Source: Thalassobacillus devorans
GTDB lineage: Bacteria; Bacillota; Bacilli; Bacillales; Halobacillaceae
Assembly (NCBI RefSeq): GCF_900176565.1
Contig: NZ_FXEH01000002.1
Span: 1-60,635 of the forward strand
Direction of reading: 5' to 3'
Length of the DNA: 60,635 nucleotides
Made by a program: the position numbers and the translations under genes. Positions 12,655 to 35,601 of this stretch are shown piece after piece (position 1 is the first letter of the stretch; each line of letters opens with the position of its first letter). Below the pieces are notes generated by a model. That model saw nothing but the letters and a program-made list of their open reading frames with translations. It did not search any database and had not been told where the DNA came from.

Positions 12655-12898
12655 GTATCATTAGGAACGTCGATGAGGAAAAGTAGAAAGCATATCCCTT
12701 ACACAGAGATAACCACCCTGGCTGAAAGTGGTTTTAAGGCCTGCTTTTGAATTGCCCCTCTGAGTCTTGCGTCGAACGAAGTAGGCGGAAGCGGGTTCTC
12801 CCGTTATAGAGAATCGAGTTGGAGAAAGGTACTTTCTCAAACAGAGTGGAACCGCGCGTGGAGCGTCTCTGTGCTGATCAGCATAGAGGCGTTTTTTT
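12655..12898 (+). promoter_or_regulatory. T-box riboswitch, tRNA-Cys specific, controlling cysE-cysS
   Basis: A complete T-box leader. Stem I begins around GATGAGGAAAAGTAGA. The specifier region reads GAAT-TGC-CCCTCTGAG, with TGC (12753-12755) as a cysteine codon, which fits the downstream cysteine genes. The T-box sequence AGAGTGGAACCGCG is at 12843-12856. A competing terminator hairpin follows. Uncharged tRNA-Cys should pair its acceptor end with the T-box bulge and prevent termination. The 5' end is approximate, because no clear promoter was found between gltX and stem I and the leader may be read from gltX. Confidence 0.9.
12864..12898 (+). terminator. T-box terminator hairpin
   Basis: The stem CGTCTCTGTGCTGA/TCAGCATAGAGGCG, with G-U pairs, is followed by TTTTTTT. 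Its 5' arm lies directly downstream of the T-box sequence and competes with the antiterminator. Confidence 0.88.
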
Positions 12899-19963: not shown

Positions 19964-20112
19964 TGTTGTTTAAATAAATACGTTATACCGTAGACAGCAG
20001 GTGCGTTTTCGCGCTTAATTTCCTGCCGAGGTGTGTGAATAAACGAAACGGTTGTCCGTTTATAATCGTTTCTCACCATAAAGCCTCCATGTCTACATGG
20101 GGGCTTTTTTCA
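19964..20112 (+). promoter_or_regulatory. L10 leader (ribosomal protein L10-L12 autoregulatory RNA)
   Basis: The leader before rplJ has the L10-leader layout known from Firmicutes: a kinked stem around AGCAGGTGC and TTCCTGCCGAGGTG, then a terminator. GTAGACA (19990-19996) is the exact reverse complement of TGTCTAC (20090-20096) in the terminator loop and stem, giving a 7-bp antiterminator alternative. L10(L12)4 binding to the 5' part would free the terminator and reduce rplJL. Confidence 0.85.
20081..20112 (+). terminator. L10 leader terminator
   Basis: AAGCCTCCATGT (20081-20092) pairs with ACATGGGGGCTT (20095-20106), followed by a T run. It is the regulated terminator of the L10 leader. Confidence 0.88.
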
Positions 20113-20186
20113 TCTTGAACACTTGCCGTTTTGAAAATGAAACAGGCACCTGACGGTATGATGAAAAGTCAATAGGAGGTGGAATG

Positions 20187-33169: not shown

Positions 33170-34360
33170 ATGGGTAAAGAAAAGTTTGATCGTTCCAAGT
33201 CCCACGTCAACATTGGTACAATTGGCCACGTTGACCATGGTAAAACAACACTAACTGCTGCAATCACTACAGTACTTCACAAGAAATCTGGTTCTGGTAC
33301 TGCAATGGCATACGACATGATCGACGGTGCTCCAGAAGAGCGTGAGCGTGGAATCACAATCGCAACTGCACACGTTGAGTATGAAACTGACAATCGTCAC
33401 TATGCACACGTTGACTGCCCAGGCCACGCTGACTATGTTAAAAACATGATCACTGGTGCTGCGCAAATGGACGGTGCTATCCTGGTTGTATCTGCAGCTG
33501 ATGGCCCAATGCCACAAACTCGTGAGCACATCCTTCTTTCTCGTCAAGTAGGTGTACCTGCGATCGTAGTATTCCTAAACAAAACTGACATGGTAGACGA
33601 CGAAGAGCTACTTGAACTAGTTGAAATGGAAGTTCGTGACCTATTGACTGAATACGAATTCCCTGGTGATGATGTACCAGTAATCAAAGGTTCTGCTCTT
33701 AAAGCCCTAGAAGGCGACGATGAGTACGAAGCTAAAATCTTTGAACTAATGGATGCGGTTGATGAGTACATCCCAACTCCAGAGCGTGACACTGACAAGC
33801 CATTCATGATGCCAGTTGAGGACGTATTCTCAATCACTGGCCGTGGTACAGTTGCAACTGGCCGTGTAGAGCGTGGTCAAGTTAAAGTCGGTGACGAAAT
33901 CGAAATCATCGGTCTTGCTGAAGAGCCTACTAAAACTACTGTAACTGGTGTTGAAATGTTCCGTAAGCTTCTTGACTATGCAGAAGCTGGTGACAACATC
34001 GGTGCACTTCTTCGTGGTGTATCCCGTGAAGATATCAACCGTGGACAAGTACTTGCTAAGCCAGGTTCTATCACTCCACACACGAAGTTCCGTGCAGAAG
34101 TTTATGTACTATCTAAAGAAGAAGGTGGACGTCACACTCCATTCTTCACTAACTACCGTCCACAGTTCTACTTCCGTACAACTGACGTAACTGGTGTTTG
34201 CCAGCTGCCAGAAGGAGTAGAAATGGTAATGCCTGGTGACAACGTTGAAATGACAGTTGAACTTATTTCTCCAATCGCTATCGAAGATGGAACTAAGTTC
34301 TCTATCCGTGAAGGTGGCCGTACAGTAGGCGCCGGCGTTGTTGCTGAAATCACTGAGTAA
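33170..34360 (+). CDS. tuf: Elongation factor Tu
   Basis: 396 aa. Delivers aminoacyl-tRNA to the ribosome. G1 motif GHVDHGKTT (19-27), DCPGHADY and NKTD are intact, and domains II and III are complete. AAAGGAGG precedes the ATG. Last gene of the str operon, closed by a strong terminator. It is the only tuf in this window. Confidence 0.98.
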
Positions 34361-34376
34361 TAACAACATTAATTAT

Positions 34377-34410
34377 AAAAAGACAGCGATCTAGCATCGC
34401 TGTCTTTTTT
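34377..34410 (+). terminator. Terminator of the str operon
   Basis: AAAAAGACAGCGAT (34377-34390) pairs with ATCGCTGTCTTTTT (34396-34409), with a 5-nt loop and a T run. Confidence 0.94.
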
Positions 34411-34451
34411 GCATTTTATCAGGGGTTCTTTACCATAATAGCGTCAGGGTT

Positions 34452-34567
34452 GGCTGGGAAACTACTCGCTTTCCTGCGGGGGAACCGACAAGCCTCCTCA
34501 GTCGTTTCACTCCTTGTGGGGTCTCGCCTGGCTCCTTCTCCCGCGGGAGTCTCGCAGTTTCCCAACC
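34452..34567 (-). repeat. Structured interspersed repeat, copy 1
   Basis: A 116-nt element bounded by the imperfect terminal inverted repeat GG(C/T)TGGGAAACT. Read on the minus strand it contains TGCGAGACTCC, the palindrome CTCCCGCGGGAG, an inner stem GGCGAG/CTTGTC (34523-34528 with 34487-34492), GAGGAGGC and GGAAAGCGAGT. It aligns over its whole length with copy 2 in the opposite orientation. Elements of this type are, from memory, scattered through Bacillaceae genomes, but I cannot name a described family. Confidence 0.75.
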
Positions 34568-34671
34568 ACCCCATCTGAAGAATGGGAGATACGAACCCAT
34601 CCCATATTATAGATGTCTTCTACTTCTAATCGATAATTGAACAAAGACGCGGTTTTAAGCTCATATTTCAT
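34507..34671 (-). CDS. Candidate small protein (54 aa), possibly a truncated gene
   Basis: Unrecognised. A strong SD (AAGGAGGG on the minus strand, about 8 nt upstream) precedes ATG 34671. The peptide begins MKYELKTASLFNYRLEVEDI, continues with YNMGWVRISHSSDG, and from about residue 36 is encoded by repeat copy 1, giving an arginine-rich tail and a stop at 34507. The stretch LFNY...VED recurs, with a one-codon indel, in degenerate sequence at 34907-34945. It may be a small gene whose 3' end was replaced by the repeat, or chance coding in repeat DNA. No promoter was identified. Confidence 0.25.
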   Translation of the reverse strand: MKYELKTASLFNYRLEVEDIYNMGWVRISHSSDGVVGKLRDSRGRRSQARPHKE

Positions 34672-34730
34672 GCGTAGCTCCCTCCTTGTTTAAAAATATA
34701 CCGATGTTTCCGTTTCTCTCATAAACGCAA

Positions 34731-34850
34731 GGAGGGCCGGGAAATTGCGAGACTCCTATGGGATGAACATGATCGGTGAGATCCCGCAGGGCTTTAGCCC
34801 GAGGAAGCTCACCTCATGCACATGGAAAGCGAGTGATTTCCCGGACCTCC
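34731..34850 (+). repeat. Structured interspersed repeat, copy 2 (inverted to copy 1)
   Basis: A 120-nt element with a 15-bp terminal inverted repeat, one mismatch: GGAGGGCCGGGAAAT (34731-34745) and its partner (34836-34850). Inside are TGCGAGACTCC, an inner stem GGTGAG/CTCACC (34775-34780 with 34808-34813) and an apical hairpin GGGC-TTTA-GCCC (34789-34800). Relative to copy 1, the inner stem shows a compensatory T-A to C-G change, and a hairpin is kept at the tip, so structure seems conserved. CCCTCCTTG (34680-34688) and CAAGGAGGG (34728-34736) add a flanking inverted repeat. Confidence 0.75.
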
Positions 34851-34906
34851 CTACCGTTACTACCTTAACGGAAAGAGTTTTCGCGAACATCACTTCTCGA
34901 AATCAA

Positions 34907-34945
34907 GTCTTCGACTTTTCCGGCCTTATAATTGAATAAGCATAG
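34907..34945 (-). repeat. Degenerate coding-like segment related to 34615-34650
   Basis: GTCTTC(G/T)ACTT, then TAATTGAA(T/C)AA, is shared with 34615-34650 in the same orientation, with a length difference of one codon. On the minus strand both encode LFNY followed by VED. The frame here is open further upstream on that strand (to 35110) but lacks a recognised SD and conserved N-terminus. Probably a decayed copy of the same small gene or mobile sequence. Confidence 0.4.

Positions 34946-35164: not shown

Positions 35165-35601
<437 letters not shown>

Follow-up and report, generated by a model that had tools for sequence, protein, structure and literature searches.

The inverted pair of structured repeats found between two genes of Thalassobacillus devorans, which we take to be tuf and rpsJ, is with high confidence a copy in a MITE family with IS1595-type ends. 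Very probably it is the decayed remnant of a non-coding, composite MITE that was moved in trans by an IS1595 transposase and whose hairpin fold has been kept by the mobile lineage.

The window, by which we mean the whole stretch of 60,635 nt that was analyzed (contig NZ_FXEH01000002.1), carries the two units, A and B, between an ORF ending at 34360 and an ORF starting at 35293 (Table 1). A sequence-only reading of this DNA had described two elements in opposite orientation here, and both the sequence and a repeat search bear this out (34539-34563 against 34739-34763 at 84% and 34436-34474 against 34824-34862 at 74%). The T-A to C-G change it had reported in the inner stem is also present, accompanied by two G-T wobbles in the GGCGAG/CTTGTC copy. 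The element is larger than the 34452-34850 interval, spanning about 34417-34941, and this copy has no recognizable terminal ends. We did not treat a 54-aa minus-strand ORF in the spacer as a gene, since the spacer sequence varies from copy to copy. Elsewhere in the window a T-box leader (12661-12873) and an L10 leader (19970-20119), both ordinary, score above the Rfam gathering score.

Table 1. Features of the element copy and its upstream flank (window positions).
Feature	Position	Strand	Basis
Intrinsic-terminator-like stem after tuf, immediately preceding the element (context only)	34377-34409	+	14-bp perfect inverted repeat, then T
Unit A outer arm; junction 34416/34417 is the left breakpoint of the micro-inversion	34417-34451	+	Copy alignment and comparison with L291
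Unit A, hairpin core (CGCTTTCC ... GGAGTCTCGC orientation)	34452-34567	+	Copy matches, alignment, covariation
Spacer with inner arms of units A and B; less conserved among copies	34568-34730	.	Copy alignment
Unit B, hairpin core, inverted relative to unit A	34731-34850	-	Genome matches, alignment
Unit B outer arm, then ~20 bases of former left host flank moved by the micro-inversion	34851-34894	.	
A-side end, unflipped outermost part (GGCC.AAAAGTCGAAGACTTGATTTCGAGA type)	34895-34941	-	Terminal repeat no longer recognizable

A search of the window's genome (4.07 Mb in 6 contigs) returned 41 matches to the left unit and 44 to the right, pieces included in both, and so many copies genome-wide rule out a local duplication without further copies. 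The pattern TGCGAGACTCC occurs 34 times on the plus strand and 39 times on the minus strand (73 in total), against 0 and 0 for the same pattern read backward. Among the matches listed, 40 places carry both units and eight carry a single unit; the A-B gap at the 40 is 108-172 bp and once 234 bp. Because these 40 places all keep one relative orientation, it is the inverted pair as a whole that repeats, and what had been described as two separate repeats are parts of one composite element. Thirty-seven of the 40 paired places were aligned; the other three are a copy that a ~1.7-kb insertion divides, a copy whose B unit is broken and a copy at a contig end. The ~1.7-kb insertion (G000:C1:784883-786614, L024) splits unit A, and a second copy of A (G000:C4:14322, L020) runs into sequence similar to it.

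Two-ended copies in Thalassobacillus are mostly 569-735 bp long and usually hold two cores. Across a set of 79 two-ended elements the commonest sizes are 181-186 bp (~185 bp) with a single core; shorter elements of 161 and 334 bp occur, and most two-ended elements fall between 161 and 760 bp. The ~620-bp Thalassobacillus form probably arose through the inverted joining of two single-core elements. In several genera a ~60-bp module with a GAAAATGC..GCATTTTC-type hairpin sits at a nearly constant position in the core (L200 as compared with L177; also L196, L218, L219, L235, L244, L208 and L228, and L007 and L091 in the window's own genome). In L200 it lies between 5-bp CAGGA repeats, and the module may be a mini-element inside the MITE or the mark of an old sublineage.

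Conservation extends outward from the units to terminal inverted repeats of ~27 bp, GGCTCTGTTAAA...TGTTGATTT. The end pattern gave 24 matches in four of the five genomes of the genus, the window's own included, and none with backward controls. Scanning named genomes with it returned at least 120 stretches; the 80 titles listed are mostly from Bacillales genera, the exceptions being Geosporobacter, a Clostridiaceae MAG, a Desulfovibrionaceae MAG and Pseudomonas sp. ISL-84. When the nearest opposite end was chosen blind to any duplication, 46 of 79 elements proved to be flanked by a perfect 8-bp AT-rich target duplication and 60 of 79 by one with at most one mismatch, while the shifted-register control yielded no perfect duplication and 0-1 with one mismatch. 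For one insertion, a 619-bp copy at G000:C4:896716-897334 flanked by two ATTTTTTA, we examined the corresponding site in congeners: there is a single ATATTTTA in G002 and a single ATTTTTTA in G001, both without the element, whereas in G003 a related element lies just beside the site and G004 differs. This one insertion thus has clean empty sites in two congeners.

Short length, many copies, terminal inverted repeats, target duplications, empty sites and the lack of a transposase gene together characterize a MITE, and IS1595 elements of other genera share its ends and its duplication length, so that of the identities first proposed from the sequence the MITE-like one is upheld. Another of them, a REP- or BIME-like extragenic palindrome, would account for repeats that are intergenic, palindromic and abundant. 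Such sequences are 20-40 bp palindromes in the description given in part of PMC3733652, whereas here the core is ~120 nt long and the elements, mostly of 161-760 bp, have terminal repeats and are flanked by 8-bp duplications, and we regard this identity as practically excluded.

No match to PF12762, the model for IS1595 transposases, was found in the window's genome, so the identification of a mover draws on other genera, and copies here probably no longer move. Across the order, PF12762 matched in 53 of 249 genomes, 47 of them above the cut-off. Locus L178 holds an element of 1543 bp that is flanked by a perfect duplication and has a 335-codon frame scoring 58.5 bits against PF12762 (cut-off 27); the right end of this element fits the terminal repeat across only about 10 bases. 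Among another 30 IS1595 loci, nine have ends of this kind around the transposase with perfect duplications, three of the nine having GGTTCTG or GGCTGTG end variants, and 21 have no such ends with a perfect duplication; ends at these 30 loci were picked with the help of the duplication. Since same-kind ends flank the transposase with perfect duplications in these nine loci, IS1595-family enzymes are the likely movers of the MITE in trans. Such a transposase would recognize the ends and insert the element into AT-rich DNA, often adjoining terminators. The IS1595 insertion sequences (L178 and the nine loci) thus share with the MITE its kind of terminal repeat and perfect 8-bp AT-rich duplications, but they encode a transposase and the MITE does not.

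The hairpin core was not found in 33 of the 34 IS1595 and gene-cassette loci searched, and we therefore rejected the idea that it is a part of IS1595 elements; the remaining locus, L324, has two weak core matches more than 850 bp past the transposase match. Three gene cassettes (L173, L198 and L202) have MITE-type ends and no transposase, with duplications that are perfect in L173 and L202 and carry one mismatch in L198. They differ from the MITE in that passenger genes are present and the core is absent. Their cargo comprises a SnoaL-like protein, a protein without a Pfam match, and FMN-binding and GNAT proteins, and we take them to resemble the mobile insertion cassettes of Bacillus. ISL3 was considered as a partner and rejected: its transposase has no match in G000-G004 and matches in eight of 44 family genomes, and none of 18 ISL3 loci has a pair of MITE-type ends around the transposase, the one TIR-like sequence in L160 lying some 1.4 kb from its transposase.

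The core, ~120 nt long, folds as an imperfect, nested hairpin in which blocks of sequence are conserved as well as pairing. At an E-value of 0.001 or better, a covariance model finds it in 192 of the 249 genomes sampled in the order, which fall in 85 of its 106 sampled genera, with at least 14 copies in 134 of the 192; by DNA comparison 40 of 44 family genomes match, and the four that do not form one genus. Sixteen plasmid records, mainly of Priestia and Peribacillus, have partial matches covering at most 72% of the query, making plasmids a possible route of spread, and the phage record set gave no match.

Our alignment (A1) holds 70 non-redundant cores, six of 76 having been left out. In it 86.4% of cells pair, a figure favored by the way the 29-pair structure was obtained, namely by folding the aligned sequences one at a time (RNAalifold alone gives 10 pairs). 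Doubly changed cells number 249, where shuffles give 100.6 +/- 8.8 and slid partners 42-76. The covariation score is 0.294, compared with 0.141 in shuffles and at most 0.119 with slid partners, and both comparisons control only in part for the kinship of copies. The inner-stem pair whose compensatory change had drawn attention to the locus (columns 36-76) is U-A in 26 copies, C-G in 21 and G-C in 15, so the covariation survives the addition of copies. One motif recurs in the outer part (columns 16-20/102-106) and the inner part (columns 40-44/67-72) of the hairpin, consisting of a pyrimidine mismatch followed by a nearly fixed U-G pair and C-G pairs, with a bulge on the 3' side; the two U-G pairs are present in 67 and 63 of the 70 copies. 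With these pairs included there are 177 G-U against 74 A-C cells, and outside them 47 against 74. The excess of G-U over A-C expected of strand-specific RNA pairing thus stems only from the two near-fixed wobbles, and the 70 copies carry no RNA-strand signature once these are set aside. The core fold is maintained, as the strong covariation attests.

At the tuf-rpsJ site itself the element is present in G000-G003 and absent from G004. G002 keeps one core in part and lacks the other, G001 has an extra module and G003 an insertion. Relative to G002 (L291), window positions 34417-34894, comprising the interior and ~20 bases of host flank, are inverted; the reverse complement of 34870-34894 corresponds to the L291 left flank with 4 mismatches in 25. 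The junctions of this micro-inversion are exact (GCATTT/TATCAGG and CATCACT/TCTCGAA), and a simple inverted-repeat crossover does not explain them. Decay of the element takes a different course in each congener and looks neutral, and we infer that the fold does not serve tuf or rpsJ. Core differences in three orthologous pairs from other sites amount to 9/213, 18/212 and 22/204 letters, and those in the remainder of the element to 17/387, 56/386 and 64/347, respectively. This lower divergence of the core could come from weak constraint, from conversion among copies or from lower mutability, and could be read as host-level constraint.

A terminator-like stem lies directly before 28 of 132 element ends, where occurrences of the same 8-mers at other places in those loci predict 5.9; coding DNA is among these controls, so the enrichment is best taken as an upper estimate. 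With shuffled flanks the expectation is 0.6 (27 observed in a slightly different window). The copy studied here likewise adjoins the tuf terminator on its downstream side. The terminator-stem test was made after a comparison of flank stability, in which the median next to the ends was no different from that of two controls (-5.0 against -6.2 and -6.6; p = 0.75 and 0.89), although 41 of 136 flanks were below -10 kcal against 16 and 27 in the controls. Simple ORF calls, which are rough, place 27 of the 37 pairs between codirectional genes (21 of them in one orientation and six in the other), six between convergent and four between divergent genes; a spurious ORF put the window pair among the convergent cases, whereas tuf and rpsJ run in the same direction. 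The codirectional placement of 27 of 37 pairs agrees with the over-representation of IS1595 between codirectional genes stated in part of PMC9208149.

What keeps the fold can be explained in several ways. In our preferred view the core serves the element's own spread or tolerance, for instance as an insulating hairpin, and palindrome-arm repair would contribute to keeping the fold. Such repair might by itself suffice: nested palindromes are prone to arm-to-arm repair, and template switching or conversion between the arms could produce covariation without selection, leaving the core a successful passenger. The decay of orthologous copies fits with this, but repair of that kind should not have left two U-G pairs and their adjacent mismatches uncorrected in 67 and 63 of 70 copies, and blocks of sequence are kept beyond what pairing alone would entail. 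We consider repair as the sole cause rather improbable, though it tempers the original suggestion of selection on the fold, for which the covariation speaks and to which palindrome-arm repair remains an alternative source.

A structured RNA, also among the first suggestions, fares similarly, in that the covarying pairs are there and the strand signature and an Rfam match are not. As an explanation of the whole, it would give the core a host function, either as a structured non-coding RNA or as a terminator or processing element at the RNA level, and transposon ends would have carried and spread it. Strong covariation, near-invariant blocks, the two near-fixed U-G pairs beside pyrimidine mismatches, the adjoining terminators and the somewhat lower divergence of the core in the three orthologous pairs are all in its favor. 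It is nevertheless unlikely given the 47 G-U against 74 A-C cells outside the fixed pairs, the broken or cut fold at the same site in congeners and the lack of any Rfam match. Equally doubtful is the proposal that the core, conserved and covarying across the order, is an uncatalogued functional nucleic-acid module which IS1595-type ends turn into a self-spreading cassette aimed at intrinsic terminators; if true, the module would be among the commonest structured repeats of these bacteria, acting on transcript 3' ends or on its own spread. Service to the element's own spread or tolerance remains our favored account. The element makes two questions testable, namely why a single hairpin is kept by non-coding mobile DNA across many genera, and whether transposons have safe landing sites in terminators.

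Roughly three quarters of the order's sampled genomes carry the core, yet it matched no family in Rfam, and it is a potential source of error in gene calling, assembly and RNA-motif searches. Rfam gave no match to the window copy at gathering score or by E-value, the best weak matches having E of at least 1, and in eight loci with single-core copies the core was unmatched, a SAM riboswitch and sbrA being the only hits elsewhere there. We found no description of this MITE family in the open-licence literature searched, and the main text of a 2024 review of prokaryotic MITEs, so far as covered, mentions neither Bacillus nor IS1595 (PMC10969869). Bhal-1, Bhal-2 and bcr1 are listed among repeat families in part of PMC2267715. 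Like our element, Bhal-1 and Bhal-2 of B. halodurans, a related genus, are stem-loop repeat families; at 74 and 76 bp they can be set beside the MITE by name, size and copy number only from that account (PMC2267715), and they may be identical with part of this element. The bcr1 repeat of the B. cereus group and the BOX, RUP, SPRITE and Correia elements are, like this one, short, non-coding, intergenic, multi-copy and foldable; the core described here recurs across 85 of 106 sampled genera of its order. The MITE family is thus a known kind of element, and what is unusual about it is its widely conserved, covarying core.
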